Shown in pieces: positions 10,601-59,006 of a stretch of DNA of 64,000 bases. Made by a program: the position numbers and the translations under genes. Numbering within the stretch: the first letter of the stretch is position 1; each line of letters begins with the position of its first letter. The stretch is taken from the NCBI RefSeq assembly GCF_030936135.1, contig NC_082616.1, positions 12,149,001 through 12,213,000 on the forward strand. The letters are read 5' to 3'. The notes below the pieces were generated by a model. The model did no database searches. It was not told the origin of the DNA and was given only the letters and a program-made list of their open reading frames with translations. The stretch comes from Gavia stellata. Taxonomy: Eukaryota; Chordata; Aves; Gaviiformes; Gaviidae.

Positions 10601-12471
10601 TTCTACCATCCCATGGTGAAGGTAATTTTCATCAAGACTCAGATTTTAATTTTTTTTTTACTAGTACTGGTAGAAATAATTGTTTGAAAGCAGGTTATTT
10701 TCCCAGATTAATATTGACACAGAGATATGTAGACAGAATGCAGCAGAGTTTGGGAGTATCTCAGCTAGCTACAGTTTTTTTGTTACATCAGTTCTTGATT
10801 GACGTTGATTTTTGTCATTTTAGATTACGGTTGTTATAATACATGGAGTGATGACTTAATATCCGGTCTTTATAGTTCGATTTTACTGAAAAGTTACCCT
10901 TTATATGAGTGAGTGTGTTGTATTCCCTGGTAATCATTTGCTTGAATGATCTTTTTTTTTTTTTTTAAGATGACAACGTCAACTGGTATTCCAGTAGTGA
11001 AGAGGAAGAGGGAAGCAGTGTTAAATCAATACTAAAAACCTTAAAGAAACAAAGCGAAAATTTTAGGAATCGGCAGCAACATTCCACAGAGCAGCACATG
11101 CTTGGTATTCCTACTGATCCGAGGCTGGCAAAAGAAAAAGGCGCAGGGCCTCAGGCTGCTGACCCGAGACTTCGGGCCTCTCCAAGGTCCAACCCCAGAA
11201 AGCCTTCAGAATCCGCATCCTTGGACCCACGGCTTGTACGAGATCCCAGGATGCACAAGGTCAGCGAGGGTGGTCACGCCAGCTCGTCCCTTGGGGGAGC
11301 AAAGCTAGATTTACACCACGCGCATGCCGGAGTTAAAGTCAAGCAAAAAGGGATGGATGATGATGAAGAGGACTCAGAAAGAGAACTGAGAGAACGAGCT
11401 TTTCTGATACCGTTGGAACCTTTGCCTGGTGTCACATTAAGGGATCCCCGATCTCAGCTTAGGCAGTTCAGCCACATTAAAATGGACGTTACCCTGATGA
11501 AACCAAACTTTGCTAAGCATATTGTATGGGCACCCGAAGACTTGCTCCCAATACCTTTGCCTAAGCCTGACCCCGTCTCTTCAATCAATTTACCTCTTCC
11601 TCCACTCATTGCTGACCAGAGACTTAATAAACTGCGGAATTTGAAAAACGATCCCCATCCAAATGCAATGCCAGCCGACCCGCGACTAGCTGCGAAGGCA
11701 AAAAACAACTTAACGGGCAGGAGCGGCTATTTGGATCCATCTGCAGATTCGCATGCCAGTAGCTCAAGCAAATTAGGAGATCCTCGCTTACAAAAAAACG
11801 TCGATCCCAGACTCCACAGACTGTCGAGTGCAGATACACATCATGGAGTTGTAAAGGATTCACACCCTCCGAAGTTTGACCCCCGCCTCGCCAGGTCTAC
11901 TGCTGGCTCATCGCAGCCCTCGGAAGCTGCGACAGCTAAACCGGACCCAGATGCTCTGCCTCCGTATGCGCCCAAATTATCATCGAGTGGTGTTAGGCTG
12001 GGAACTCCAGGCTCGATACTGAGCGGTATTAGTTTGTATGATCCGAGAGATCACAGCTCATCATTGGACACAGCTCCAGCTAGTTCAGGAGAGAACGGAG
12101 AGAACCAGAAGAAAAGTATTTTGAAAAATTCTGGTAAAAATGAACCCAGTCTCTCAGAAGATACATCGCTGCAGAAGGCTGCCTCGAACGTGGAAAAAAA
12201 TACAGAAGGATCAGCAGAAGCTACTTCAGATAAAGCAAATAGCACCAGTAAATCTCAGGCTAAACACTCCAGCGCTGCACCTGCGGTACATAATCTTCCT
12301 ATCCAAGCTTTATCGGGATTAATCAGACCGCAGTACAGCGACCCAAGGCAGGTTAGACAGCCTGGACAGGTCACTCAAACACAGGATAGTGATCCGAATG
12401 GGGAATCAGATGATAAGTCATTAAAAGATGTTTTCAAGACTTTCGATCCAACTGCTTCACCGTTTTGTTAG
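1648..12471 (+). CDS. ZC3H6: ZC3H6, CCCH zinc-finger protein 6 (5' partial, 7 exons)
   Basis: Coding exons are 1648-1769, 4240-4356, 5858-5969, 6554-6663, 7467-7720, 8348-8868, 9142-9381 and 10970-12471 (stop TAG); phases agree at every junction. The first exon encodes an Arg/Gly-rich basic patch. Three CCCH fingers with C-x8-C-x5-C-x3-H spacing follow: [10 protein letters not shown] across the 4356/5858 junction, [10 protein letters not shown], and [11 protein letters not shown]. Next come [18 protein letters not shown], a Pro/Gly/Met/Gln-rich stretch, and a large last exon with about ten DPR motifs ([21 protein letters not shown]) ending DPTASPFC. Order and wording match vertebrate ZC3H6 throughout and fit it better than ZC3H4. 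The family (ZC3H4/6/8, related to Drosophila Suppressor of sable) is nuclear and RNA-linked; ZC3H4 restrains unproductive transcription, whereas the role of ZC3H6 is less clear. N-terminal exons lie outside the window. Confidence 0.95.
5759..5780 (+). repeat. G homopolymer
   Basis: Fifteen G, one C, then six G, in the ZC3H6 intron about 80 bases before the 5858 exon. It is likely to vary in length and to be error-prone in sequencing. Confidence 0.9.
5970..6553 (+). other. ZC3H6: U12-type AT-AC intron of ZC3H6
   Basis: The 5' splice site reads ATATCCTTTT, the minor-spliceosome AT-AC consensus. The 3' end reads TCCTTAATACATTGCTTAC, which contains a U12-type branch site (TCCTTAA, 6535-6541) about 12 bases before the terminal AC. 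Splicing there joins CAC A to AT GAA TTC and gives His-Asn-Glu-Phe, exactly the residues between the second and third CCCH fingers of ZC3H6. No GT-AG choice gives that reading frame. Confidence 0.9.
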
Positions 12472-13400
12472 CAATTGATTTTAAGTCTTTTTACTGTTGT
12501 GAATATTGCAGTTTTCTGCTGTTTTGTAACTGGTTTACCTCTTTGCTTTATTTATTTTTAAATTATAATTATCAACACTTTTCAGCTGCTAATCTCAGAA
12601 CCACATGCAGTTATACAGTATGCTATAGTGTTTGCAAAGCTGTGGTATTTTCTATATAATACTTTTCCAATTTCAGGGAGACTAATAATTGACATGTAGA
12701 AAAAACCCCATGTATTGTGTTAGAGCTGATAAAAGCACTTTCATTGTAAATAAGTCATTAAGGAAGTCCGACGACCTGTATATGTGTGAGCTGTCTCTTT
12801 CATAAACAACATTTAGATATGATTGCCACATTTGTATGATTGTATAGATACAAGCAATATTATGTACATTACTGTGAGAGACGCTGTTTGACAAGGATTG
12901 TCTGACGCATCAAGCCAAACCTACTAACTGATTTAAAACCTACACGAATGATTTAAAAGGAAAATGTTGATCCTCCTTTTCAGATCAGTTGATGTAAGAC
13001 ATTGACAGTTTTTATTCATGCAGTCAATATTCTTAGTGTAAAAGAGACCTATATCGCATATTGAGGATTAAAAATGTCATATCTTTTAAAAGTATTTTAT
13101 TCTATGCTGTATATAGAAGAAATTGTGAAGTACATAACTAGAAGAAAGTTACTGTTAAAAGTGGAGAATACCTAAGTTGTCTAATACAAAAAAGGTTTTT
13201 ATTTAATTTTTTCACGCATACACAATTCTGATTAGTGCTATAAGTTACATTGTGGTGTTCATGTATTTCAATGTATTTTTGTATTCAGCTGCTTAATTTG
13301 TATTGCTTTTTTGTATTGATGTAACTGCAGTACTTGTATTCATGGTGTCTTTATGACATTTTTAACAAAAAAATTAAAAAGGGTACAGATAAAGTCTGGT
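12472..13400 (+). other. ZC3H6: ZC3H6 3' UTR
   Basis: AT-rich sequence after the stop. It contains two Pumilio-type elements (TGTAAATA at 12745-12752 and TGTATATA at 13108-13115) and ends near an ATTAAA signal at 13373-13378. A canonical AATAAA at 13798-13803 could serve a longer form. Confidence 0.7.
13373..13378 (+). terminator. ZC3H6 polyadenylation signal ATTAAA
   Basis: ATTAAA inside an A-rich run about 900 bases after the stop, followed by TG/GT-rich sequence (GTCTGGTAACGACTGTGATGTTG nearby). This is the commonest variant of the polyadenylation signal. The alternative AATAAA is at 13798-13803. Confidence 0.55.
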
Positions 13401-16400
13401 AACGACTGTGATGTTGACATGCTGGCAGCTAGTTCAGCGTTGGGGAAAGAGCAGTGGGGGTGTCTGCAGGATGAAGGTGACTAAAACTGGTTTTAGTACG
13501 GTTGCTACGCCACGTTACAGTCAGATGGTAGTGGGTTTTTAAACTAACCTTGCGCTGAATCCAAATGGAGTTAGCTTGCTGCGTGGTTCCAAGATCAGAC
13601 TGCTGATTTGGAGAGAGTCGTCATTCTTCTCTTACTACAGTTATCAGCATCGCTATGAGAAATGTCACGCATGTTCTTTAATTTCTGAAGATGTTGCATG
13701 CCAAGAGCACAACTGTCCTCAAAGCCTCTCTTGTTTTGCCTTTTGGGTTGCTCTTTATATAGAGGAAATGTAGTCATACCTAGCTAGCTACGTTTACAAT
13801 AAAAACTTGCCGTCTGCTCAACTGCCATCTGGTTCCCGCCCACTTGGAATGTTTCTTTGCATTAAGTCTCTTCCTTGGTGAACCTTTTCCTCTTTGTTTC
13901 TGTTTCTTGGCCCAAGTAATGCTTGTGAGTGGGATGGTATAGCACTTATCACAAATTCTGTGGTTTTGGTTTCCTGTGCCTGTGAGACAAACAGTAATCC
14001 AGGCAAGAATTGCAAGGGTCTTGCATTGATGAGCAGAGCTTGGATGAACGGAGGGAAGCTGCTGATTTCTACGTGTGCAAAACGTGGCGGGGGAGACGTT
14101 GCTGAAGGCAGTAATGGTTTCAATTTGCCTTCCTGATTGCCCAGAGTATAAATTGTATTAATTTTATAATATTTTGAATCGCGTTCACTCAAAATAATTG
14201 AAAACTAGAAAACGGACATGAAACTTGGGTGTTATTTTGGAGTAATCTACTGGTCCCATGTATTTACTTCTTCTTCATCGGGTGACAAGTTTGGCTGTTC
14301 CAGAATTTCGTCAAAAAAACAAGCCAGCAGAATGGGACAGCAGGGAAAAATAGAAATAGTTTGGAAATAGCATGTGGATTGATAAGGGAACAAAGAGAAA
14401 AAGTGACAGTATTGAAGCCGGATGCGTGGTTTCACATTTAGTTATGGGAAGTATTTGTAGGATGTGCAACTCTTAACCTGAAGTTGTGACTTCTTGTAGG
14501 GTGGTGATGGTGTCATCACTGAATTGGATTCTCTGTGGTTTTTTGAAAGCACTGGAAAAATAAGAGTCAAAGGAAAAGCTTTGATACCAAAAGCAAAATA
14601 ACATGCTTTACAGTTGAGGTAATCGAAGGATCTCGGGTGGTTTGCCATCGGTCTGGTTATGGACCCATTTTGGAGTTGCAGATCAAAATTGGGTGTGTTG
14701 TGGTAGGGGGACGTGGAGTGCTGGCTTCTGACCCTGGAGATCCACTGCCATCTCAGTATCTTTAATACCACACAGGTCTTTTATTTTGGAGAAGAAGGGG
14801 TACAAAGTAAGGAGGAAACGTAACTTGGAAGGGGCCAGCTAGTCCTTGCAGCCTGTTGTCTATGCATGTAACCGCCTCCTTCCTTCCTTCTTCCCAGGTC
14901 CAGAGGTGCCCACCCAGCAGGTCCCCGTGAGCCTCCCCAGCTGCGGCAGGAGGGTCTGCGGGCTGCTGCTCGCCTCCTCCCTCCGCCTGTGCTCGCTGCT
15001 TTATTCGTTGCAGATTTCTTCCCCGAGTCTACGCTTTTTCTGGTGTGCCCGCTGCTGCTGTGCTCTCTCGAAATGTGGAGGAGATTCATTGCTACAGTGC
15101 AAGTACTAAACTACCTGATACGGGGAAGGCGCTGGGGGTGTCGGAGGGGGCAGGTGGGGACAGTCCTGTCACGCTGAGGTGGGCTGGAATGGGCTGCAGT
15201 CACCAAGCAAGTCAAGTCTGATCTGCTGTGCGGATTGATTGTCTTTTACAGGGGAGGCTTGTTTCCATCTCTTCCACACCTGCAGTAAGCTGGCACGGAG
15301 CAGCGGTTCCCTTGGACGCTTGCAACTCATGCCCCTGAGACGGTGAAGCACGATGTGGAGAGCTGTAACAGGAGCAGCTGGTATTGTTGGTCCTGGATGC
15401 TCTGGAAGCCTGTAGCTACAAGGTGGGTGATTGCCAGCATGGAATGTTTTGCTGTGGGTAAAAGAAAGTCCTGGAGCTGAGAGGGATTTTGGGAGAAAAG
15501 TCTCATTTCTCTTCAGCTTCTGCTGAGTCAGGGGCAGCAGGTGAGACAAAATGCTTCGCGCTCCTGCCAGCCCTGGAGATGTGAAATAGTAAAACGTTTT
15601 TCTCTGATCTTTTCTGCCTTCTGCGCTTCAAGAAGAGAGCATTGATAGATCATCACCTGGTGTTTGCTGCCCCATGATAAAAATACTTGTAGGGAGATTT
15701 CTACTCTCCCTAAGTAGCCTATTAATATTTTTCTACTGCGATGAAAAGACTAAGATGAATTGTTCATATTGCAAAGTAAATCAATTTATTCTTGCAAAGT
15801 AGAGAATACTTAATTGCACTCCTGGTTTGCATTTCAAAAGTCAGTGATCCTATCCCTTAGTCTTCTTTCTCATTCAGTTCTTCTTTCCTCTAGCTTTTGT
15901 AGTGCCTTTTTCGTGTTACCCTCTGAGTTCATATTTTGCCTATGAACTCCACCCTGTGCACTGGCTCTTCCGCAGGGTTATGTATCTCTGGCTGCCCTTC
16001 CTGTGCAGCATTTACGATTGCTACCCCTAGAAGAAAAGGGGATGGTTGCTAAAAAGGGGATGGTTGCAAAAATTTTGATTGTGTGCTAAAGATCAGGGCC
16101 TGAGAAAGACCTCCCAGCTTTGAGGCTTTCTTGTGATGAGCAACACACGTCATTTACAGAACCCCCTGATCCTTCCCCCCAGCCAGATTTGCTGGTGCTG
16201 CTACAAGTGCGTTCCTACATCCCTCTGTTTGCATCTTGGGCGCTGAATAACACAGAAGAACTGGCAGTTATTGAAAGTAATATAATGAAGGTACCTCATC
16301 AAATGCTGTCTTCCCTGTATCAATGTGTGCTAAAGAAAAAAAAAAAGCCTGCCTGACTACGTAAGAGCTAGAGCTGGCTCACAGCTGGAAGGGGGCATGT

Positions 16401-16650
16401 GTTATAGGAATATAAAGGGTTGTAGCCCCACTTGGTGGCCATTGATTCAAGAGTAATGGTTTCAGAGTGACTCCTGTGCCAGGTAACAAAGATCACTGAA
16501 TGATGTTTTACTGAACAGGAAACATTCTGTTTTCCCTTTGACTGAGTCTTAAAGCTCTTTCCCAACGCCTGTGTCCTCTGTGGCTCGGTATAGCATCTTA
16601 CTACTCAACTTCAAACGCCATCTGGATGAGAGGCCTCTTAGGAAATACAC
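13401..16650. other. Convergent intergenic region
   Basis: This lies between the 3' ends of ZC3H6 (plus) and the vinculin-like gene (minus). No open frame here is convincing. The only structure seen is a GC-richer patch at about 14880-15060 and a short direct repeat of AAAAGGGGATGGTTGC near 16034-16067. I see no RNA gene. Confidence 0.6.
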
Positions 16651-16666
16651 TAGCGCATGGCATCGT

Positions 16667-16672
16667 TTTATT
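16667..16672 (-). terminator. Polyadenylation signal of the vinculin-like gene
   Basis: AATAAA on the minus strand about 235 bases beyond the stop codon at 16905. It is the first canonical signal downstream, which gives a short 3' UTR. Confidence 0.6.
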
Positions 16673-16904
16673 CTTCTCTTTGTTCAGTGGCCAAAAGGAA
16701 GCAGTGCCTCTGCAGGGTGGAATTTGCCACAGGAGGAGCGGCCAGCACACAAAAGCCTTTCCAGGCCTTGCACTCTCAGTCCTCCTGCAAGAGCAGCTCT
16801 AGCAGAAGAGATGTGAGCCAGGAGGAGTGCAGCATGGGTCGCGTTCTTTCTGCTGAGGCCAGTTAGCCGTGCAGTTCCCCTCCAGCAGAAGTCCCTTCCT
16901 GTTT

Positions 16905-19900
16905 TTACAGGTGGCTGTCCATAATTTTGTGTCCTTTAATAGGTTTTGGATGCCTGGGGGTATTCCTGGTCTGAGGTGATTGTTCTTGCACCATAGCCAT
17001 CAGGCTGGGTTCAGCCCTTGCCTGAGTCTTGCGGAGCCCTAATTCATCCCTGTCTGAGTTTAAAGACTCCTTGGCTCTATGCTGCAACAAGTTTTTTCTC
17101 CACTGCATGCAAAGAGCAGCTACTTCTTCTTCTTCTTCAGAGTCAGGCGGGGGCTGTCGCAAACCCTATTAGGAGGAGACAAAACATTTGCATGCTTTAA
17201 TATATTGTTGTACATGAACTAGTTTTAAATATCTTAAATGATATGAAAGTCTGAATATATCAATGTCTGTGTGACCAATATGGCATCTCTACCAGTTAGT
17301 GCTTAAAAAATGTTTAAAATGCTTAATGCTTGAAAGTGCTTAAAAACCTCCTTACAGAGAGACAAAAGGAATACAGTATAGTTCTTTTAATGATAAGCAG
17401 GGAAATTTCGAAAGGGAGAAAGCCAGGTCATAAAGGACTTTAATCTAGGCCATCAGGATAAAAGAATGGCTAGTTACTTCAGGCTGACATCAGCAAAGTG
17501 AAAAGTGGACATATATAGTATGTATGGGCAATTAACTGCAGGAGGAGCTTTTCCTCCCTTGCGGCTGATTCTCCATCAAATAAAATTCTAATCAAAACTG
17601 TGACTCTTTCAAAAAGATGTGCTGGAGCTCAGCAAAAGTTGTAGGATTATGTAGGAGACTAAGGCACAGAATGAACAACTGCATCAGTGGAGAATCTGGC
17701 TGTATTTGTACTTGTTTTCTGAGTGCTTTCAGATAAAGTCTGCTCTCACAAACTCTTTACAGTTGGATCAATCAGCTGTCATTGGCAGCTGTAAGGGAAG
17801 GTCTTGGGAGTTTTGATCAAAGCTCATCTTGAGACCAACATAAAAGCTAAGACTGACATGGACTATTTCCAAATAAAGGCCTCCAACGAGATGCTGCTGC
17901 TCTCCTATCCAAAAATGAAATGGGAAACGGATCAGCTAAAGATGACTTCAGAATTGGTAGCAGTGACAGAGCAGATTCAATGCCTGGAAAGATGCGTAGT
18001 GGGCTTTAGAAACAAGACAGGCATAAAATAAAAACATCACCGTAAGAATCTTTACTCCCAGCTGGAGTTGACAGAGGTCCCACAGCAGCAGCCTGCTGTA
18101 ACCAGACTTGGCTGTAGGAGCTCCCCACAACGTGGACTTGCCTTGCAAAGCCTATTTGATGTCATCAGCGTTAACTTACTTTGATACAGGCTGCCTCAGC
18201 TGCCTTCAGAACATGCCAAACTGCTTGAATTAGGTTCTGCGCGTTGCTCACGAGCAGCTCAGAAGAGGACTTGCTCTCTGCAGTGACTGCTTTTACCCTT
18301 AAAAGACATTTTAAAGATTTTACTGGAAGAGCATCAGACAGCCTGCTTCCCCTGTGTGGCCAGAGCTCTGGCCAGACACTCTTCAAAACCAGAAGAGTGT
18401 CCCTGCACTATGAGAGCAGGTTTCCACAGAGGCAGGCAAACCAGGGGAGAAAAGGGCTGTTTACAGTGACAGGAAGAGGAGACGGAGCCCCCTGAATGGT
18501 AGCTGAACTCCCTGATCCAACAAGGACCTCTGGAGACCACCATGTATATCTCTTTGTGAAGGGGGCCACCGACCTTCGGAGAGATGGTCCTTGACCCCAG
18601 CGACTCACCTGGCCACAATGCTGAGCTGGCTGCTGATGGTGTGGGTCTGCTCTGCGGCGCACAGCAGCTCTGCGGAGCATCTCCTGTCGAGGCAGTGCTT
18701 CGCAACGATGCGGCCAAATTTAACGAACGCCTGCCCGTCAGAAGCAATTTGCCTTGCGCAGGCGACAAGCTGGTCCTTGCTCTAAAAAAAATAGAAATAA
18801 ATGTGTTTGGGGAGAGAAGGAGAAAAAAGAGGACTTCTCCTGCAAGACAGGGGAGCGTCCCGGAAGCCCAGATGTATTCTGAAACAAGGAAAGGACTGGA
18901 TGCCAGGTTCACATCTAATCAGGAGGAAGTAATCTCTAGTGCTTTGCATAAATGCAGCCGGTACCACTCTTACAAGAGCGGGGTAATTGCAGGGGTTTCA
19001 GCGGCCCTGTCACTGGCTTTGACTGCGCTCTTGAGGAAAAAATACTTCCTTTATCCCTATTAAAGTGCTGGGGTGGAGGGGATGAAACACTCCATACCGC
19101 AATAGGGCCCTTCTTCCTCAGGAACTGAGTCATGTGTAGCATCCTTGTTGCCATGTCCTTGGTGACCTGGGACATCTTGCTGGGGCCGCCCTGCCATGTG
19201 TCACTTTTTTCTCTCTCATGCTTCGCAGGGCTGCTGGCAAGGGAGATGCTGCGAGGACCATTCTGGTGCTGTTGAGACAATAACTGAACAGATTTGAAGT
19301 CTGGAGCGTGCAGAGGCATCGATGATGAGAAGTCTCCGCCTGTGTGTTTCTGAAGGAGTTTTTGGTGAGTAAAGGAGACAGGAGAGCTGCCCGTGACCTC
19401 ACTGGGTCTGCTCTGCCTTCCCAACCAGCCCTTCTTTCCCCTGCATTCACCCACACTGGGACTATCAAATCCCAGTGCCCCGTGCCATCGTCTCCTGAAG
19501 CTATCTCCAAATGGGTGGTAGCTGTCAAGTGAGCTGACAGCGCCCGTGGTTGAGAAGTACGATTAAGTGCTGTTAAATCACTCTGCTGAGCGATCTGAAT
19601 CGTGTACTGAAGCCTTTGCCAGCTCCTGACAACCAACAGTAGTTGTTGTGGGAGTGGAGTTGCTGGTACTCTCCAAGGGTGCTTGTGGGGAGGTGAGCTG
19701 AGCAGAGACAGGTAGTGTTTCAGGGGAGGGAGAGCGGTACAGCCCTCTGCTCCTCAGAAACAGCGTTTTGGAGATGGCTTTATTTATGTAAGAGTGTCTG
19801 TCAGATCAGATATCCAGAACTCAGCTGAACAGGGCAGCCAGCAACCTGATCTAACTTTGAAGGTGGCCAGGGGGTTGGACGACTGACCTCCAGAGGTCCC

Positions 19901-22900
19901 TGCCAACATTGCTTACCTTAATGCTCTGAGGTGTGACTAACAGGACTGACTGACAGCCCTGACCATCACCCTGCAGTATGAGTTGACGGGGCAAAAAGCT
20001 ACTGTACCATTTCACGTGCCTCTCCGGCAGCTCCACTTCCTCGTCTGCTGCTGCTCGGGCAAGTTTCTGCTGACATGGTGTGGCTCAGAGCATCAAGCTC
20101 TTGGGCTGGGAAGAGCTTGGCTGTGCTGTTGCGTTGTCTTGGAGAGCACTGGTCCCCCGTGTTCCGCAAGCGTTGTCTGATGAGCTGCAGAACATGTCCA
20201 CTGATGCCCTGGACAGCCCGCAGCTGTGTGACGAGGTAGTGTGCCTTTGCTGACCAGTACCAGACAATACTGTCCAGGTGGAGATGCCCTTTGTCCTGGT
20301 GGCTCTGGAAGAGCTGGCTGGCACTGCCCACTGCGTCAGACGTGAGGACCAGGAGGTGGTCTGCGACGGAGAGCAGGTTCGCCTGTGACTGCAGTTGAGC
20401 GCTGGCCTCCACAATGTCTTGGAGCGTGGTTTTGACCCACTGAACATTGGCCATCAGCCGACTTGCCTTCTCTTCAAAGACCTGTTTGCTTCTCTCCTTC
20501 TCCTCCTGAGAGAGGGGGGACAGGGCTGGTCCAATGACATCTCGGATGACCCGCAGGTGTTCGGTATTGACCTTCTCCAGGTGAAGCAATAATGCCTTGG
20601 CCCTAAGGGCCAAGTCTCTCTGCAGGAGCTCAAAGCGAATGTACAAGCTGGCAGTAGACAGTGGGGAGACCAAGAGGGTATTTGAGGCATCCAGCAGTGC
20701 TTCCATTAGCACCTTTATCTCCTCCCTGAGCGCTAGGATTTCACTGCGACCATGGTCTTCAGGGCAGGACAAGTAAGACAGCCGGGCGGCCTCCTGCAGC
20801 CTCAGGGAGTTCTCGGACACAGCAGCTAAGAGGCTTTGCGAGCAAAGCTTGTTCTTCACGGCGCTCCTCAGCTCCCTCAGGAACAGGACGTCCCTGCCTA
20901 TGAACCGATCCACAGCGCTCAGCAGGACGTGCATGCTGACAGCCCACTGGACACAGTGCAGCTCCAGGCTGGCCTTTCCCACCCTGCAGGAGCCCTCGAA
21001 GGACGCTGCTTTCTCAAGTAACACTTTGGTGTTCATCTGAGCACGTGAAAACTTGGCTTGGACCTGTAGAAAGCTCTCCCAGACATCGGGGGAAATGGGA
21101 TTTGCCTTACTACAGGCTACGCTTGCAATCTCTCCTGCTAACTGAACTGCTCCTGCTAAACCCATCATGGTCTCATCCAAAGCCTGTTTGCCTCTCAGAA
21201 AGTCATCCGACAAGATAAAGCCAAATACTTGCTGAGACAGGCTATACCAAGAGCCTGCCACAGCTGCCAGGCACTCTTCGGTCTCACAGATCCTTTCTGA
21301 GAGTGTGAGTGCCATTTGGAGAAGTCTGCCTGGATGACAAAGCTGCCTTGGGGCTGTTTCCCTGGCCAGGCAAATAACACGTGGTGTCAGTAACACAATC
21401 TTCTGGTAGTGCCCCAGCGTCTCCATCTGGGGAGACTCAGCAATGGGCAGCGCTTCCTTTGCCGCATCGATACAGCCGTTGGAGAGTTCAAGCAAGGCGG
21501 AGCAAGCAGCGTTGACAGCTGCTGTATCATGGGCTCTTGTTGCTGCTAGGAGAGCCGTAATGACAGGGTGCGTATCTCCTTTCCCTGGAACAACATCCGC
21601 CTGTAAGTTTCCTGGTCGTGGAGGTGGGCGAATTAAGATGTCTTCTTGCAATGCAGCCTCATCCGTAATGGTTTTTAGCCCAGTGTGCGACAGGCTGAGT
21701 TCAAGCGCCTTTGCAACATCAGTGCTTCGCACTTGTTCTCGGAGAGGGCTGAGGATATCTGGGTGATTGGACCCGTCCAGCCCGTCTTGGACACGGCGAG
21801 CGGTATCCATCAGGCAGCTCGCTGCCTTTGAAAAGACATCCCTAGTTTGGAGGCAGGAGAGTCTCTCTGGACAAAGGGCTGTGACCGCTTTCAGGTCAAG
21901 GATGGCGTTGGCCAGTTGCTTAACCCAAACCAGCAAGCCGTTCCTGAAAATGGGGTCTGTGGCTCTGTCCACATACCTGGTGGTAGCTTCAACCACCCAC
22001 CGAGCCCAGCTGGTGAGGTGAGTTACATGCCAAGAGAGCCTCTCAGGGTCCTGATTTTCCAGGGCCTTTTCACACCATTCCCTGTGCTTGGCCATGTCCT
22101 GGACGGACAGCTTAAGGAATTCACGCATGCTGACCGTCTCCTCAAAACACCGCAAGAGGCTTTCTGTTGTCCCAGCCCACGTGTGGTACAAGGACTGCAG
22201 TCGCTCAGCAGCACTCATCTGGGCTGTATTTCTGCTCATTTCTGTGAGCAGTGGAGGGAGACTGGCAAGGAGTCTCTTCAAATACTCTACCCACTCTCCG
22301 ATTTCTCTAGCAGTTTGGGTTTTGGTGCACCTGGCCAGAACAAAGTCCACCGCTCTGAGCATCTGCTGGGCCTGTGTGAAGAAGGTGGCAGTGAGGGGCT
22401 GAAGCTTCTTTAAAAATCCTCCTTGTCCTGCTGGAAAACACCCTGTACCAGCAAGGCTAAGGGCATCTTCAACTAACTGCCTCAGGGGCTCCTTACCCTC
22501 AAAGACGGTGTCAAGGATTTGGCACAGAGTAGCTGTGAGCACTGCCTGGTCGAGAGTCTCCACCTCCTCTCTCATGGTGTGACATTCCTCCTCCAGGCTG
22601 CTTTCTCCCCAGCTTTGCCCTGGCCATCCCTCCTGCTGGCTCACATGGCTGCAGATGCTTTTCCTCAGCCTTAGCAGAAGCCAGCAATGTTTTACCAGGT
22701 CCAGCTTCAGATCTGGCCTGGACGAGTCTGCTAGAAGCATGCAGTAGAAAATGACTGCTTCCACGTGAGCACTGAACTCGCTGTTGGAGAGGCGCACGGG
22801 GTCTGGGCGAGAGAGGAGAGCCAGCAGCCTGCTCACGTGCTGGGAGAAGGTCCCATTTCTGTTCCGTCGCTCCTTGCTGCCCGTATTGTCGATGAGCAGG

Positions 22901-24606
22901 GAAGTGAGCTCTTTGATGGTCTTCTCCGTCAGCTGGAAAGCGTAGTCTTTGGAGAGGCTGACTTGCTGATCCCAGGAGTGTTTAAGATCGCTGTGCTTGG
23001 CTGCATGGAGCAAAGGAATGCACTTCTGAAGGAGCTGCAAAGTTTGGGCCAAACTCTTCTGTCGAGGACAATCTCCGAGTTCCTCGAGGCGCTTTGCTGT
23101 CAGATTGCTCAGCAGAAGCAAGGCCTCAGAAAAGGCCCGGAAAGCAGCCAGCAGTCCTGGCATGTCCCCTGCATCCCGCAGCACGCTCAGGCACTCCAAA
23201 AGCCAGCTGGCAGCCTGAATTATCCTCCTCTCCCCGGCAGCATCTTCGATCTGAAGGATCTAACCAGAAAAAAACAGCAGAAAAACTGGTCAGAGTGGCT
23301 AAGGCTCAAGAATCCCTGTTCACTATTTCATCCCTTGTGCAGCCAAGATGACAGCTCAGCCCTTGCAGGGAAGAGAAGAGGTGCGTTTTGCTCAGCAGGC
23401 CTGCCCTAGAGAGCACACGGGGAAGAAACAACCATTGCTCCAGCTAGAGCCTCCCCCAAGCCCCAGCCCCTGTCCTGGCGGAGGACAGCTCTTGTCCCTC
23501 CTGCAGCTGCACCCTTACCCACCGCTGCGTCCCAGCCCGACCTCCTCCCCTGCTTGCGCCGGCACTGTCCCCCTCTGCCGTTACCTTCACTGTCTCTGTT
23601 AAGACCCTCTTTGCCGATGCAGCCAGCTCCTCCCTGTGGCTAGGGCTCTCCGGCTGTACCTGGAGCTTGTGGGCTGCCAGCAGCACGCACCTCCCTGCCA
23701 GGACGAGGGACTCGGCCGCAGGACGCGTCTCCTCCTTGAACACCTCGTCGCTGGACTCCTCAGCCAACCTGGAACAGAAGCAGCTGAGCTCAGCTCTTCG
23801 CCATCTCGTGAGTACCAGCCTTGGTGGGTAGTAGCAGCGAGGATGCTGCACCGGTCTTGGGCTTTATCACAACAATTAGCCGCGCCAGACCTTAACTGGG
23901 CTCGGATTGATTTTACCTGTATTTGCAAACTGTTTCAGAACCTTTTGCAGTGGGTGCAATTCACTTTAAGATAGGGTGTCTGCCGTCTACCAGGCCCTAG
24001 CTGTAACAGCAGAATAACCCAGTGGCCAGTGCCTGATCTGTTGTTTTGGGCTCCAGTTTTCGGAAGCATTCAGTAAATTCACTGAAGCATTCGGTCAATT
24101 GCCCAGTTATCATTTTAAGATGTGTTTAGTTTAAACATTGCTTGTTGAGGTTTTGCTTACTTTGCCACATCCCTTCCAAGCACATATCCCTGCTTTGTCC
24201 CATCTCTCCTTTTCCCTTCCTAATCCTATTCCCCCGCTTCACGTTCCCCATCCCTCCCTCCCTCCCGTTCCCACCTCTCCAGCGGGGTGCAGGCAGGGAG
24301 CACCAGGCAGGAGAGGCGGGCTCCCTGCCAGTTTCTTTGCCATTCCTTCCTCCTCTTTCCCAGCCCCCAATTCTGCCCAGGAGACACCCAGCAAACTTAC
24401 CTTCCTGCAACAGAAGCGAGTTCTTCTGTGGCTTTGGCTAATATTTCTGCATTCTCCCCTAAATTGGGAAAGGCCTGACAAATCCCATCTTCCCATTCCA
24501 GGGCGAGGATTAGATGGCAGAGCTGCGCAGCCATGGGGCAGAGAATCCTTTGAATAGCTTTGTTTTCTGTTAGGAGCCCAAGGTCATAGAGATAAAAAGG
24601 CTCCAT
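16905..24606 (-). CDS. Vinculin/alpha-catenin superfamily protein, unrecognised member (1428 aa)
   Basis: Coding exons, 5' to 3': 24606-24401, 23768-23585, 23259-20008, 19190-19098, 18781-18609, 18297-18180, 17165-16905. All have GT-AG ends and consistent phase. The N-terminus (IQRILCPMAAQLCHLIL; later TETVKILQIEDA) has the pattern of the first vinculin/catenin helical bundle. The C-terminal exons form a vinculin-type tail: EAREMGGPSKMS, MTQFLRKKGPIA (alpha-catenin MTDFTRGKGPLK), VKFGRIVAKHCLDRRC, HTISSQLSIVARVK, and LLVSNAQNLIQAV (vinculin MLVHNAQNLMQSV) then AAEAACIKV. The last exon adds an acidic DSEEEEEV stretch and a basic C-terminus. Helical sequence fills the middle, with one short proline patch near residue 670. 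At 1428 residues it is longer than vinculin (1066), alpha-catenins (about 906) and alpha-catulin (about 734). An actin or adhesion scaffold role is inferred from family only; I know no name for it. Confidence 0.85.
17166..18179 (-). other. Last intron of the vinculin-like gene
   Basis: It separates the tail exon ending ACIK (18180) from the acidic final exon (17165). It is AT-rich and I see nothing else in it. The other introns over 300 bases, 18782-19097 (316 bases), 19191-20007 and 23769-24400, are likewise empty apart from the CR1 fragment. Confidence 0.65.
19832..19912 (+). mobile_element. CR1 LINE 3' fragment
   Basis: The wording GGGCAGCCAGCAACCTGATC, then GGTGGCCAGGGGGTTGGAC and AGGTCCCTGCCAAC follows the conserved 3' end of avian/reptilian CR1 elements. 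The terminal octamer repeat is not obvious, so it is a decayed, 5'-truncated copy. It lies in the intron after the giant exon of the vinculin-like gene. Confidence 0.75.
20008..23259 (-). other. Single 3252-nt coding exon of the vinculin-like gene
   Basis: The frame is open for 1084 codons between a TTAG acceptor (before 23259) and the donor ATG|GTACAG (after 20008). It encodes residues 131-1214. The residues at its 3' junction join as EAREM|GGPSKMS, matching the register of EARKWSSKGND in vinculin. Vinculin and alpha-catenin genes normally split this region over many exons. Confidence 0.8.
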
Positions 24607-24611
24607 TGCAT
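24570..24611 (-). other. Short overlapping uORF at the vinculin-like start
   Basis: An ATG at 24611-24609 lies five bases upstream of the chosen start and out of frame with it. It has a poor context (T at -3, C at +4) and opens a 13-codon frame ending at 24570. The chosen ATG (24606) has G at -3 and G at +4. Leaky scanning past the weak ATG is the simplest reading. Confidence 0.55.
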
Positions 24612-25453
24612 CCAGCCTGGAAAAGGGAAACAAAACCTGGGATTATTTGGGATGCTTTGCAATCTGTAACCTTACCAGTTTTACTAGTGACCTTGGATTT
24701 GGAGGGCAGCTTCTGGCTTTGGAAATGCTACTGGGTTTAGTTTCTCCCAGCCCTGTGACGAGGTCAGCGACCTGCTTTTGCCGCAGCTTTCCCGGTGTGG
24801 ACCCCCGGCTCTGCCGTCTGGCTTTGCTCAGCGCCGAGACACGGCCGTGCCTCAGGGATGCCCAGACCCATCCCACAGACCCATCCCGAGTTTACATGCA
24901 CGCGGCTCCCTCCCTTACGTGAGCCCAGGTATTTCCTTACCGGGGCGCGGGCGGTGCTGGGGACGGGGTAGCGGGCTGTTCCCACCAGCGGGACCCCGTG
25001 ACGGTGACGTTACCTCCTAGCACCCGGCTGTCGGCGGGGGGACACGGGGGTGCCCATGCCACCACGGGCCTGTGCACACGCAAACGGCTCCTGGGCAGGG
25101 GTATGAGCCCATGGCGAGCCGAGGCGGGGGATTAATTACACCTCCATTACCATAACTCGTTTCCTGTTGTGGACAGGGTGAAAGGCAAAGGGGGAAGGCA
25201 AGCGGCTGCCGCCGGCGTGCGTGGGGCGGAGGGGCTCGGGGGTGCTTGGGGGGCATAGTGGGGGGCTGGCGGCTGGCACCCCCGCGGGCCTCTCTCCTGC
25301 TCCCCCCCGCTCTTTCGAGGCCAGGGAGGGTTCCGGCGCCGGGGGGTGCCTCCCCGCTGGGGGTGCTCCCCCCGGGGATTGCTGGAGGGCCCTGGACGGG
25401 GGGGATGTCTGTGTGAGGGGCCGCGGGGGGCCCCGCCGCCGGGATGCGCCAGC

Positions 25454-25467
25454 GTCGCCATGGAGAC
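25454..25467 (+). promoter_or_regulatory. X-box-like RFX site
   Basis: GTCGCCATGGAGAC resembles the RFX X-box GTTGCCATGGCAAC with imperfect half-sites. It is about 50 bases from the ZNF143-type site. Confidence 0.4.
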
Positions 25468-25518
25468 GTGCCCGCCGGTCGCAGGGCGGTGACGACATGG
25501 CGGCGCGCCCGGCCGCGG

Positions 25519-25538
25519 GGCACGCCGGGAGTTGTAGT
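25519..25538 (-). promoter_or_regulatory. ZNF143 (SBS-type) site
   Basis: The minus strand reads ACTACAACTCCCGGCGTGCC, close to the ZNF143/STAF consensus ACTACAATTCCCAGCATGC that is common just upstream of CpG-island start sites. Its position fits the proposed promoter of the vinculin-like gene. Confidence 0.65.
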
Positions 25539-25640
25539 CCGGCGGTGGGTGCGGGAGGGCCGGGGGGTGCAGGCCGCTGCCTCCGCCCGCCCTCAGCGGC
25601 AGCCTCAGGCCTGAACGCCCCGGCCCTGGGCCGCTAATCT

Positions 25641-26640
25641 GCCTAATCCAGGGGCCAGCCGTCTGCACGGCTTTGTGCTGCGCCTTCCAGCCCCTTAATC
25701 CTCACGCTGTGCGAGCGGATGTGCTCCCTGCCTCCTGCTGCCATCCTGCCTGGGTTGATAGGGGCTGAGGGGGGTGTGGGGGCACACGCCACTATTGCCT
25801 TAAAAACCTGAGGAAATAAGCGGCTGTGTGAGGAGCGAAGGCCCCCAGAGGGGTCCCTCCTCACGCCAGGCCTGCCCGAGACCCAGGCTCCCGCTTCGGC
25901 CCGTGCTAGCGAGCATCCCTCAGCCGCCCGGCCTTTGGGTAGGGAGTGGGGCTGGTGCAGCTTTGCCCCGTAAAAAAGGAGTGACTTCTGCCTTCTCCTG
26001 TCCTCCTGCGAACTCGGTCTGTGTGACGTTTGTAAGGCCTCTGCTGAACTGCTCTGCCAAATGAGGGACTCATCTGCGCACTCGGGTAATTGGGGGGGTA
26101 GGACACAAATGCAAGCGAGAGAGAAAACAGGCACGTTTTCTGCCTATTCTGACTTTTTCTGTGTCCTTTCACTTAATGCAGAATATCCACAGGAAACAAC
26201 GACCCTTCTCCCGGGAGCGTAAGCTTCAGCGCTATCTCCTGTGTTGAAGTAATTCCGTAGGAACTCAGAGAGTAACGTAAGTAAAAGCAGAATCAGAGCT
26301 GCAAAAAAAAAAAAAAAAAAAAACCTTCAGGTTGGGATAAATTCATTTTTCCTTCTTTCTGGCATAGTCTTATGTGCAGCTAGTGTGGCTGCGGAGTGGT
26401 AAGGATTGATCCTGACTGAGATCTGACCCTTCGCAATGTGCGCTGCTCGCAGACATCTGTCTCATACAGTGCTGGAGCTGGATCCTGCTCCGATTTCCTC
26501 CTATTTTAAGCACCCCCGTCCCAGGGGCGGCTGATTTCCTGAGGGGTACGGACATTTTCAGGAAGGTCCTGAACAAATCTACCTTTAGAAATTACTTTTG
26601 TAATTCTGAGGGTTACGGGTGCCTCTGGGGCAGTGCAGCT
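25641..26640. other. Intergenic DNA between two head-to-head promoters
   Basis: No supported gene. It contains a 21-base A run at 26303-26323. The open frames that cross it on either strand are side effects of high GC content. Confidence 0.6.
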
Positions 26641-26689
26641 GTACAAGTTTCACCCTCTTGCAGGGTCCCCCTTGTCGCGGAGGTGCAAA

Positions 26690-27180
26690 AGCCGACAGAC
26701 TCCAGCTGTACGCGCGGGTGTCGGGGCGCTTTTATTCCGAAGAAGCCGCAAAAGGGTCGTTGGAGCTTCTAGACCGTCGCTCGTGAATCGGGGATCCCGC
26801 GTCGCCGCTTCCGAAGGGCCGGTGAGCTGAGGGGGGGCCCGGCCAGGCGCCCCTGCCTTCCTCCGCGCTGGGGTGGGCGTCGTGTGCGGCTGGGGATGCT
26901 GCGGGGGGGCGTGCAGGGTGCATCCCGCATCGTGCATCCCGCAGCGCCCACCGCGCCCCACGCCTGACGCACGCGCCCCGCCCTCCGTGCGCGCGCCCGC
27001 CGGTGCAGCGCCGGAGGAGGAGGAGGAGGAGGAGGAGGAGGAGGAGGAGGAAGGAGAGCCGCCGCGATGGACAGCACGGGCAAGGAGCGGGAGGCCGTGC
27101 AGCTGATGGCGGAGGCCGAGAAGCGGGTGAAGGGCTCCCACTCCTTCCTGCGGGGGCTCTTCGGGTGAGCGGGGCGGAAT
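26690..27180 (+). promoter_or_regulatory. NAPB: CpG-island promoter and 5' UTR of NAPB
   Basis: Dense CpG sequence surrounding and preceding the NAPB start codon, including a GGA triplet repeat just upstream of it. No TATA box is evident. The start site is not determinable from the sequence but probably lies within the last few hundred bases before 27067. Confidence 0.6.
27013..27051 (+). repeat. (GGA)n triplet repeat in NAPB 5' UTR
   Basis: About 13 uninterrupted GGA/GAG units ending 16 bases before the NAPB ATG, so probably transcribed in the 5' UTR. A purine-rich tract like this is often polymorphic and can affect scanning. Confidence 0.9.
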
Positions 27181-30100
27181 GAATGGCAAAGGGGGGCGTG
27201 CCCGGATTGTAAAGGGGGGGCGACTTGCAAGAGGGGGGTGCGCGAAGGGAGGGGTTGCAAAAGGGGGGAGCACGGTGCGCAAAATGGGGGACTTGCAAGG
27301 TGTGCGAGGGGAGGGGCTGCAAAAGGGGGGGTGCGGGTGTGCGAGGAGAGGGGCTGCAAAAAGGGGGGTGCGGGTGTGCGAGGAGAGGGGCTGCAAAAGG
27401 GGGGGTGCGGGTGTGGGAAGGGAGGGGCTGCAAAAGGGGGGGTGCAGGTGTTCGAAGGGAGCTGGGCCCTGTGCGTGGGTTTCTGCAGGGGGGTGGCCCC
27501 AGCTCCTGCCCCTCCACCTGGGTGCTGTGCCCCCCCCCCCCCCCCCCCCCAGCGTGGGTGAGGGTCTCCCTTAGCCTCTGCAGTGGGTGGGCTGTGTTAG
27601 GGTGGGGAGGGAAACACGGGCCCCCCACCTTAGCATAGCAGGGGTAAGCCCGGCCAGCGGTGCTCCAGCAGCCCCCCTTCCAGTGTTGTGCCCCCCCCCC
27701 CCCCCCCCCCCCCCCCGGGTGCTGCCTCTCCTGCGGCTGTCCATGGGCACAGCAGTGTGACGAGCCTGCTCGGCCTCTGCAGCTTAGGGTGCCTCTGCCT
27801 GTGCCCCCCCCACCGTGTTCAGCCCGCCGTGGGGGGTGTCCCCGGGTCCACAGCAGCTGCACTCGCTCATCCCAGCTTTATCCCGGTAGGGAGTCGCCGC
27901 TGGTAATCCTCTCGCGGCTGCGGCGTCACCGGGGTTCGCCCTGGCAAGGGCTGGCCTCTCCCCTTATCCTGGGGCGCATCCTCACCCCGCAGGGCAGCAG
28001 CACCCCAAGGGCTCTGCTCGGGCTGCTGCGAGCGGTGCCAGGGCGAGGCTCGAAGCCCCCCATCCTCCTGGAGGCCTCCTGCAGCTCCGGGGGGGGTTCG
28101 GACCAGGCTCGGGCTTTTGCAGATGATTTCTGCCCAGCGGAGCCGTGGTCCCCTCACAGCTCCGAGCCCTTGGCTCGCGGCACAGAGACCCTCCGAAGGG
28201 ACGGGGTTGCCAGGGGGAGCGATACCCCCAGAAAATGGTAAAGCTTCCTGTTTACTGGGTCTTTTTGTGCAAACGTAGATGTTCCTGGGGGTGCTACGGC
28301 TGTGCCCAGCGGGGTTCTGAAAAACCAGCAGTTTTGGCCACCTCAATTTTGGCTTTTTTTTTTTTATTATTTTTATTTTTAAGAAAAGAGCATTTATGGA
28401 GTGATGCTCCCATGGAGGCCTTGGTGTTTCTAAACAACAGCCTGGAAAAATCTAGTGCCCGCAGCCCTAAAAGCAGAAGTTTTATAAATAAATTCCTCTC
28501 CGTCCTCTGGCAGATTAATCGGGCAGGGCGTGCTCCAGGGGCGTAATCCGGGCAGCAAATTGCTGAAAATCCTGGGAGTGAACCGGCAGAGATTTTGAGA
28601 GGCAAATTTCTCATTTTCTTGGGCTAAAAATAGATGCAAGAAAAATTGCTTTTAAAATGGAAGAAAAGGTGGTGGGTAACTTTGCTCTCGGCATCCTCCT
28701 GGTGAAAGGGGGTGCCCAGGCCACTGACTGCCCGCCAAAAGCATTATTGACGGCTGTGTTTTTCCTGAAGAGCTCCATTAGCTTGCACAAGCACTTTTCT
28801 TTTTTATTTTTTTGAGACTAAAAGGCTGAAAACGGCCCTGGTTTGGATGCTTTGCAGGGTGTAGCATTACCTCGTGCCGCCTCCTTTGGCTTTAGTTCAC
28901 GCAAAAGGCGGCTTTCAAGAGCAAGAGAGAGCAGTCCAGAAAAACCGCCTGTACTTAGAAATGAAATGTGGTCGGCTGCCAGAAGAAGTAAGGGGAAAAA
29001 ATAAAAGGCAATAATAAATGTTGTCACCTCCTGCGCTCCAGTCCTTTCTGGGCTCAGCAGGCCCGTGTGCTACAGAGGGCAGTAACGAGCTTGCAGGAGC
29101 AAGTCCATGAAGAAATCTGCATTTAATTAACAAAAATATTTAACTTCTCTCTCAGGATAAAGTAATCATTAATCATCCGGTTTGGGGAGCCGAGTTATGC
29201 TGCCAAACCCCATCGGTTAGATTTGTGTTGATTTGTTTTCTCGCTCGCTTTCCCTACCAGAAGATGGAGAGGTGAAAACCCAGCGGCGTGTCGGGGCTTG
29301 GGCTGATGAGGTTTATTTGTTGGGACCCGGAGAGCGTGCGCCTGTGTTTGTTATGCAAGCAGCAAGTTGTCTAGCATCTCTTAATTTTTGATTTGCTTTA
29401 TGTTCTCTGAATGATGTGGTGGTTTGTTGCGTACCGGAGCTTGCTTTTTGCAGGTGTTTTTGCTGAGTGTCTTGTGAGACTCTTACGAGAGCCAGCTGCT
29501 CCTGCCCAAAAAAGGAGGGACCCAAATCAGGGAGCAGATGGGGGCTTGCTCCAGACTCCAAACTCTTTAGGCATGTGCCAAAACCCTAAGTTGCCATTTC
29601 AGGAGTGAGTTTGCCTCAGTTTTCCTGTCCCTGCTTTATGCAATGAAAAACTCCACTTCCCCGTTCTAGCAAGGGCTTAGTTATTCGGTGCCTGCCAACT
29701 CCGCCTGCTCCCTGTTCACAGCGGCGCTTGGGGGACCCCCTTAGACGCTAACCGAATTTCTCCCTATCTCCACTGTGTCTTGGTAGTGAGCTGGCACCCC
29801 CTGGGAGAGGGTCCGGTGAGGGCGGGGGTCTGCTGGTCCCCTAAATCCAGCTTTCCCCTCTCCAAGCAGCGTGATGCTCACCCAGCATTTTAAAATCAGG
29901 GTGATCAGCCTTGTCAAGCCCGAGGGGCCATGTCACCCGAGCACGCGGGGCTGCAACATCCCAAACCCTATTTCAGCTCTCGGCTCCGGTTTCGGGGGCG
30001 GTGTTCCATTCCGGCACGGCATCAGGGGCTCTCTCGCTGTGTTTCAGGGGCAACACCAGGGTGGAGGAAGCCTGCGAAATGTACACCAGGGCTGCCAACA

Positions 30101-40766: not shown

Positions 40767-47708
<6,942 letters not shown>

Positions 47709-51859: not shown

Positions 51860-59006
<7,147 letters not shown>

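Follow-up and report, generated by a model that had tools for sequence, protein, structure and literature searches.

A minus-strand gene at 24606-16905 of the window (the whole 64,000-nucleotide stretch of Gavia stellata DNA analyzed here) is designated VCLL, a name coined for this work. Judged from its sequence, VCLL is probably an intact coding gene, the sixth vinculin/alpha-catenin superfamily member detected in this genome, and a deep lineage of its own, with a product that would act as a linker and an origin that may lie in a spliced transcript. Vinculin/alpha-catenin proteins connect cell contacts with the actin cytoskeleton. One more ancient member, intact and extended by a long additional segment, would change the picture of how cell adhesion evolved. 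Two features go beyond the first-pass annotation of this DNA: the intron pattern of VCLL and an insert of approximately 575 residues between the head and the actin-binding tail.

Gene Structure and Coding Integrity

VCLL has seven exons (E1 to E7) with matching phases and GT-AG at every border, and its product is 1481 residues in length (Table 1). The first-pass annotation predicted the start (ATG, 24606-24604) and the stop (TAA, 16907-16905) exactly, and all of the motifs it quoted are found in VCLL. Its product length of 1428 residues is replaced here by one that is 53 residues longer. It also described the exon ends and phases as all clean, which holds for the reading frame and the GT-AG borders of the seven exons but not for the E3|E4 donor. 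This donor (ATG|GTACAG) is weak and lies outside the ten best-scoring donors in a crude donor scan, making E3|E4 the least certain border. E7 is the least supported coding exon because it has no homologue.

Table 1. Features of VCLL and its surroundings (window coordinates).
Feature	Coordinates	Strand	Description
E1	24606-24401	-	Residues 1-68 and two bases of codon 69; ATG at 24606; donor GTAAGT; start of vinculin-type D1 head, ungapped vinculin match from residue 15
E2	23768-23585	-	Remainder of codon 69 through residue 130; acceptor TTCTGTTCCAG, donor GTAACG; inside vinculin match
E3	23259-20008	-	3252 bp; residues 131-1214; 0 stops
E3, head part	23259-21730	-	Residues 131-640; colinear with alpha-catenin/vinculin head
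E3, insert part	21729-20008	-	Residues ~641-1214; without known relative
E4	19349-19098	-	Residues 1215-1298; linker followed by beginning of actin-binding tail
E5	18781-18609	-	Residue 1299 through the first two bases of codon 1356; within actin-binding tail
E6	18297-18180	-	Final base of codon 1356 through residue 1395; within actin-binding tail
E7	17165-16905	-	Residues 1396-1481 and stop; acceptor CTCCTAATAG, phase 0; C-terminal extension
I1353 codon	18619-18617	-	Counterpart of vinculin I997 and alphaE-catenin I792
V1357 codon	18296-18294	-	Counterpart of vinculin V1001 and alphaE-catenin V796
Poly(A) signal AATAAA	16672-16667	-	233 bases beyond VCLL stop
CpG-rich stretch	25001-26000		Between VCLL and NAPB exon 1; GC 0.69-0.72; CpG observed/expected 0.63-0.71

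The 1084 codons of E3 contain no stop. In 200 dinucleotide shuffles, the stop count averaged 36.9 and never fell below 24, and each of the other five frames contains 23-46 stops. The open frame of E3 is not due to chance. When used as a query, E3 matched a single locus in the genome, which rules out a second VCLL copy. The CpG-rich stretch is a candidate for a promoter region shared by VCLL and NAPB.

Domain Layout

By sequence, the layout of VCLL is (N- to C-terminal) a vinculin-type head at residues ~15-640, the insert, a vinculin-type tail at residues ~1253-1395, and an unrelated C-terminal end. Pfam Vinculin (PF01044) scores 216.2 bits on the whole product (E 1.2e-63; cut-off 38.1) and 75.6 bits on residues 131-639 alone. 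E5 was matched by PF01044 in the genome scan with an E of 4.7e-6, which is below the cut-off by itself. Among PDB sequences, 51 matched VCLL at E ≤ 1, with best values of 5.9e-34 for vinculin and 6.4e-30 for alpha-catenin. The PDB and family HMM matches follow the order of the superfamily, a head and then a C-terminal actin-binding domain.

The family HMM match spans residues 10-626, and residues 16-626 align to CTNNA1 23-624. The D1 region aligns with vinculin over 205 residues without gaps; 49 are identical and A50 is retained. Vinculin D1 positions occupied by V, I, L, M, or F are hydrophobic in VCLL as well at 54 of 69 sites (background 0.49). The vinculin D4 region corresponds to residues ~480-624 (segment HMM, E 1.8e-8). 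A full-length MAFFT alignment that placed D4 on the insert was overruled by this result and dropped.

Depending on the PDB chain, the tail alignment starts at residues 1219-1265, and the PDB vinculin match ends at residue 1395. Vinculin gives the best tail match (52 of 158 identical). The tail motif GPIA resembles the GPLK of alpha-catenin. I1353 and V1357 are retained in VCLL; the corresponding residues contribute to F-actin binding in vinculin and alphaE-catenin. Of seven further vinculin tail residues, three (R976, E1015, and E1021) are conserved in VCLL and four (N980, Q983, R987, and R1008) are not. The FPPPP linker and PWYQ end of vinculin are absent from VCLL and present in VCL of the same genome.

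With this layout, VCLL would serve as a cytoskeletal linker of considerable length. Its head would bind an amphipathic helix presented by an adhesion or membrane partner, comparable to vinculin with talin, the insert would form an extended helical rod, and the tail would hold F-actin.

The insert matched no Pfam family above its cut-off and gave a single PDB match (E 1.1). Repeated vinculin bundles were considered and rejected: the vinculin-family HMM gave 1.1 bits (E 0.033 among eight segments), self-BLAST gave a best E of 1.5, and the hhalign score of 20.9 (E 0.16) is only a slight excess over the 15.2-18.2 of four shuffles and was not counted as a match. The helical moment of the insert has a z of 3.2, and both composition and helical moment are like those of the VCLL head. 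The insert is probably helical.

Distinctness and Phylogenetic Placement

VCL, CTNNA1, CTNNA2, CTNNA3, and CTNNAL1 were each found at a separate site in the same genome (CTNNAL1 at C3:68.30-68.36M). VCLL is therefore at least the sixth superfamily member and not a known paralogue under another name. Six is a minimum, and more diverged members are possible, because the Pfam genome scan assigned scores to 53 of the 63 candidates and CTNNAL1 was absent from its list. Identity between VCLL and each known paralogue is 16-22%. A search for related loci in collections of genome contigs and viral contigs returned no relative. The superfamily members named in the excerpts of PMC9569426 and PMC3141441 are vinculin, the alpha-catenins, and alpha-catulin only. 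No description of VCLL was found among the matches listed from open-licence literature, and automated annotations may already call it "vinculin-like".

Trees were built from columns with a VCLL residue and no more than 3 of 9 rows missing (560 head and 160 tail columns). Residues 58-80 (exon 2) and 626-634 were masked in the VCL row. Paralogue coverage was 832 (CTNNA1), 771 (CTNNA2), and 705 (CTNNA3) of 906 guide positions, and 693 of 734 for CTNNAL1. The rows include reference sequences such as human VCL, and a second run without the reference rows gave the same picture.

The concatenated alignment, without an outgroup, separates VCLL and VCL from CTNNA1-3 and CTNNAL1 with support of 99.2/100. 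In these unrooted trees, the concatenated and tail alignments favour the vinculin side (alternatives p-AU 0.004-0.010). With the head alone, p-AU is 0.062-0.069 for a position on the alpha-catenin stem or beside CTNNAL1, and neither is excluded; the SH test retains both placements even on the concatenated alignment (p 0.33; 0.078 without reference rows). The tail-only tree does not support the alpha-catenins as a clade (35/44). The VCLL branch is 1.7 substitutions per site, and its length could distort the tree.

Nesting of VCLL within a known group was rejected on the concatenated alignment in five positions (p-AU ≤ 6.2e-5), which bears out the earlier proposal of a superfamily gene outside VCL, CTNNA1-3, and CTNNAL1. 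Three of these lie inside CTNNA1-3 (p-AU ≤ 1.04e-5; sister to CTNNA2 alone was left out), one lies with CTNNAL1 (2.0e-5), and one lies within VCL, between the VCL of this genome and human VCL (6.2e-5). The tail alone rejects the position within VCL weakly (p-AU 0.035, p-SH 0.42). Inside CTNNA1-3, the largest tail-only p-AU is 0.0105 (with CTNNA1), and two positions analyzed without reference rows give p-AU ≤ 4.9e-6 on the concatenated alignment.

Introns

The region covered by E3 holds 14 resolved introns in VCL and eight in CTNNA1. None of the five mappable VCLL introns is common to VCL, CTNNA1, or CTNNAL1, and no exact position or phase match exists; an earlier candidate, two tail introns at alpha-catenin positions, was discarded on this computed map. 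For two of the five, the offset is 11 nt to a VCL intron and 19 nt to a CTNNA1 intron. CTNNA1 and CTNNAL1 have four introns in common. One intron common to VCL (674.0), CTNNA1 (463.0), and CTNNAL1 (480.0) is missing from VCLL.

The map is composed of script-resolved junctions only (17 in VCL, 12 in CTNNA1, and 12 in CTNNAL1). The E3|E4 intron of VCLL lies in the unaligned linker and was left out, as was VCL 853.0, also in the linker; VCL 628.2 is doubtful. For CTNNAL1, an unreliable junction at ~461, two unresolved junctions near the 3' end, and one short intron within a match are excluded. CTNNA2 and CTNNA3 were not mapped separately; those of their introns that were resolved are the same as those of CTNNA1.

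As judged from the five mappable introns, ancestral introns are absent from VCLL, as for a retrogene. The lack of shared introns is a hint of duplication at the RNA level followed by intron gain, and it suggests that VCLL arose from a spliced transcript and gained its introns later. The poly(A) tract and target-site duplication of a retrogene are expected to have decayed at such divergence.

Alternative Explanations

Two alternatives concern the gene model. VCLL may be transcriptionally silent or recently inactivated, with a frame yet to decay, which would fit the weak E3 donor. This is very improbable given 1481 stop-free codons, GT-AG throughout, and the poly(A) signal; moreover, a frame kept intact despite long divergence from every paralogue points to long selection. 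The earlier view that VCLL is not a pseudogene holds at the sequence level. The insert may instead belong to a separate gene or be a retained intron, leaving a true protein of ~900 residues, a vinculin relative of normal size. The insert has no homologue and the E3|E4 border is uncertain, but a single stop-free frame covers both head and insert, and the two resemble each other as described above; this reading is improbable. An intact gene that includes the insert is preferred.

The other two concern ancestry. PMC3933685 postulates a lost ctnna4, sister to ctnna3 and former host of lrrtm4, and VCLL could be this gene, a fast-evolving fourth alpha-catenin, as the GPIA motif might suggest. This identity is extremely improbable. 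The trees reject a position sister to CTNNA3, with p-AU values of 3.8e-50 on the concatenated alignment (3.4e-6 without reference rows), 3.0e-4 on the head, and 0.003 on the tail. The other tested positions inside CTNNA1-3 are rejected as well; VCLL shares no intron with CTNNA1, whereas CTNNAL1 does, and its D1 head is ungapped against vinculin. An ordinary ancient vinculin paralogue, duplicated at the DNA level with most introns lost singly and no retroposition, is a serious contender whose chances fall a little short of even. An excerpt of PMC3257199 describes intron gain in vertebrates as extremely rare and loss as commoner, with gains reported in domesticated genes and those in retrogenes mostly in 5' UTRs, and the rarity of gain disfavours a history of retroposition plus gain. 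Six introns are still present in VCLL, and alignments at 20% identity can shift by a few residues, which is relevant to the 11- and 19-nt offsets. Against single losses stand the missing intron common to VCL, CTNNA1, and CTNNAL1 and the absence of any exact position or phase match.

With a spliced-transcript origin, the coding region of VCLL may be an instance of introns being gained repeatedly in a vertebrate. In its fullest form, which we regard as speculative and rather unlikely as a whole, VCLL would be a fourth vinculin-superfamily subfamily, derived from a vinculin-like mRNA reverse-transcribed before the human-bird split and later furnished with six introns in its coding region along with a new rod of 575 residues. 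It would serve sauropsids as a long, force-bearing actin linker, and mammals may have lost it as the ZC3H6-NAPB interval broke.

Comparison with Known Relatives

The putative ctnna4 of PMC3933685 is a hypothesised additional vertebrate alpha-catenin, and it differs from VCLL in its postulated ctnna3-sister position, rejected here for VCLL, and its postulated lrrtm4 host role. Alpha-catulin (CTNNAL1) belongs to the same superfamily and has a similarly low identity to vinculin, 18.5% (21% in the excerpt of PMC9569426). It is 16% identical to VCLL, is about half its length, occupies a separate locus, and shares introns with CTNNA1 and none with VCLL. The alpha-catenins (CTNNA1-3) have a colinear head of similar length and the I792/V796 pair kept in VCLL; they differ in the rejected in-clade positions, the unshared CTNNA1 introns, and the VCLL insert preceding the tail.

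Vinculin shares with VCLL the ungapped D1, the best tail match, and the I/V actin-contact pair. Overall identity is 22%, no mappable VCLL intron is held in common, and the middle of the VCLL head is shorter: the two head matches lie ~250 residues apart, compared to ~470 in vinculin. VCLL also differs in having neither the FPPPP linker nor the PWYQ end. With the 575-residue insert, it would be a naturally occurring vinculin that spans a different distance from partner to actin.

Gene Model and Domains

The vinculin/alpha-catenin-like gene, referred to here as VCLL, has seven exons that join into a single frame of 1481 residues. The total of 1428 residues given in the first-pass annotation was not reproduced. 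Its seven exons with fitting ends and phases were borne out, as each border is GT-AG and the phases are compatible throughout, with the border between exons 3 and 4 being the weakest. Exon 3 is 3252 bp in length and contains 0 stops, compared with a mean of 36.9 and a minimum of 24 in 200 dinucleotide shuffles. A poly(A) signal is located 233 bases past the stop. Exon 7 is without a homologue. It contains an acidic run (EEEEE) encoded by five consecutive GAA codons.

VCLL scores 216 bits against Pfam Vinculin, and its best PDB sequence matches are vinculin and the alpha-catenins. The head (residues ~15-640) aligns colinearly with alpha-catenin 23-624; starting at residue 15, a gapless vinculin match covers 205 residues, 49 of them identical. 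The best match of the tail (~1253-1395) is the vinculin actin-binding domain, with 52 of 158 residues identical.

The insert between head and tail (~641-1214) matches no Pfam family above its own cut-off. It finds one PDB chain (E 1.1) and scores 1.1 bits against the vinculin-family HMM. The hhalign score of 20.9 slightly exceeds the 15.2-18.2 of four shuffles and was given no weight. The composition of the insert resembles that of the head. The helical moment is raised in both (z 3.2 in the insert, 4.7 in the head), although the 160-degree control is also raised (z 2.1). We infer that the insert is a diverged helical rod.

Relationship to Known Paralogues

A whole-genome Pfam scan (1.32 billion bases, 53 of 63 candidates scored) returned five clusters: VCLL, and four assembling into VCL, CTNNA1, CTNNA2, and CTNNA3. 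The CTNNA1 is 98.6% identical to the human sequence used for comparison over 832 positions. CTNNAL1 is missing from the list for the candidates scored; a human CTNNAL1 probe located it at C3 (77% identity, 693 positions). The genome therefore holds at least six superfamily members. Exon 3 of VCLL, used as a genome probe, matches only its own locus. Each paralogue shares 16-22% identity with VCLL; over the same columns, VCL and CTNNA1 are 28.5% identical.

The concatenated head and tail alignment (720 columns) separates VCLL and VCL from CTNNA1-3 and CTNNAL1 with support of 99.2/100. On this alignment the AU test rejects three VCLL positions inside CTNNA1-3 (p of 1.04e-5 or less), one inside VCL (6.2e-5), and one inside CTNNAL1 (2.0e-5). 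With tail columns only, p reaches 0.0105 for the CTNNA positions and is 0.035 for the VCL position. With the paralogues at separate loci, these results uphold the earlier claim of a gene outside VCL, CTNNA1-3, and CTNNAL1.

For placement on the alpha-catenin stem or beside CTNNAL1, the AU test gives p of 0.004 with the concatenated alignment and 0.009 with the tail, rejecting both positions, but 0.062 with the head by itself, where neither is rejected. The SH test, which is more conservative, retains both even with the concatenated alignment (0.33, or 0.078 without the human sequences); the results otherwise agree when these sequences are dropped. The alpha-catenin clade is unsupported on the tail alone (35/44, or 22.4/34 without the human sequences). 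The VCLL branch is long (1.7), and because the tree is unrooted, VCLL could be the outermost lineage.

PMC3933685 postulates a lost ctnna4. The position predicted there for ctnna4 is rejected for VCLL by the trees. Among the matches listed from the open-licence literature (titles and abstract openings), none describes a gene of the VCLL kind. An automated annotation name such as "vinculin-like" may well already exist for VCLL.

Intron Positions

Five of the six VCLL introns lie in alignable sequence, and none of these five coincides with a mapped intron of VCL (17), CTNNA1 (12), or CTNNAL1 (12). The nearest are 11 nt away in VCL and 19 nt away in CTNNA1. A span that is a single exon in VCLL holds 8 introns in CTNNA1 and 14 resolved introns in VCL, of which one is doubtful and another falls in the linker. 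The mapping recovers the expected sharing, with four introns common to CTNNA1 and CTNNAL1. One of the four is also in VCL, and this intron is absent from VCLL.

In our view, this pattern is best explained by an origin of VCLL from spliced RNA followed by new introns. Against this reading stands the description of vertebrate intron gain as extremely rare in PMC3257199, which does report such gains for domesticated genes. A possible alternative is that introns were lost step by step, together with some alignment error.

Genomic Neighborhood

VCLL lies between what we take to be ZC3H6, for whose last large exon Pfam gave no match, and NAPB. The starts of VCLL and NAPB are divergent, ~2.5 kb apart, and flank a CpG-rich stretch, possibly a two-way promoter. 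Past NAPB come two BTB/POZ zinc-finger genes; as GZF1 adjoins NAPB in human, one of the pair may be GZF1 and the second a relative. Human ZC3H6 and NAPB are on chromosomes 2 and 20, which places VCLL at a gene-order difference between human and this genome. Just past NAPB exon 1 is a tandem repeat (37-bp unit, 4.4 copies, 92% matches). The long GC-rich frames that it opens on both strands are unlikely to be genes.

Features of the VCLL region (window coordinates)
Feature	Position	Strand
ZC3H6, last large exon (putative)	10969-12471	plus
ZC3H6-NAPB interval (gene-order difference from human)	~12500-27000	
VCLL, exons 7 to 1	16905-24606	minus
GAA codon run, VCLL exon 7	17124-17138	minus
Interval between VCLL and NAPB starts, around a CpG-rich stretch	24606-27067	
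NAPB first exon (putative), ATG	27067	
37-bp tandem repeat	27299-27461	
NAPB, SNAP-family exons	~30782-36039	plus
BTB/POZ zinc-finger gene	46296-47732	minus
BTB/POZ zinc-finger gene	57537-59087	minus

Comparison with Vinculin and Alpha-Catenin

Vinculin A50, which has a part in talin binding, is conserved in VCLL. Alanine substitution of I997/V1001 in vinculin, or of I792/V796 in alphaE-catenin, reduces F-actin binding, according to PMC11827635. The VCLL counterparts are I1353 and V1357; VCL and CTNNA1 of this genome likewise carry I and V in these positions. Four of seven other vinculin tail residues checked differ in VCLL, and the FPPPP linker and PWYQ end of vinculin are absent. Judged from the residues kept and lost, the VCLL tail probably binds actin; the insert would extend the reach of the link.
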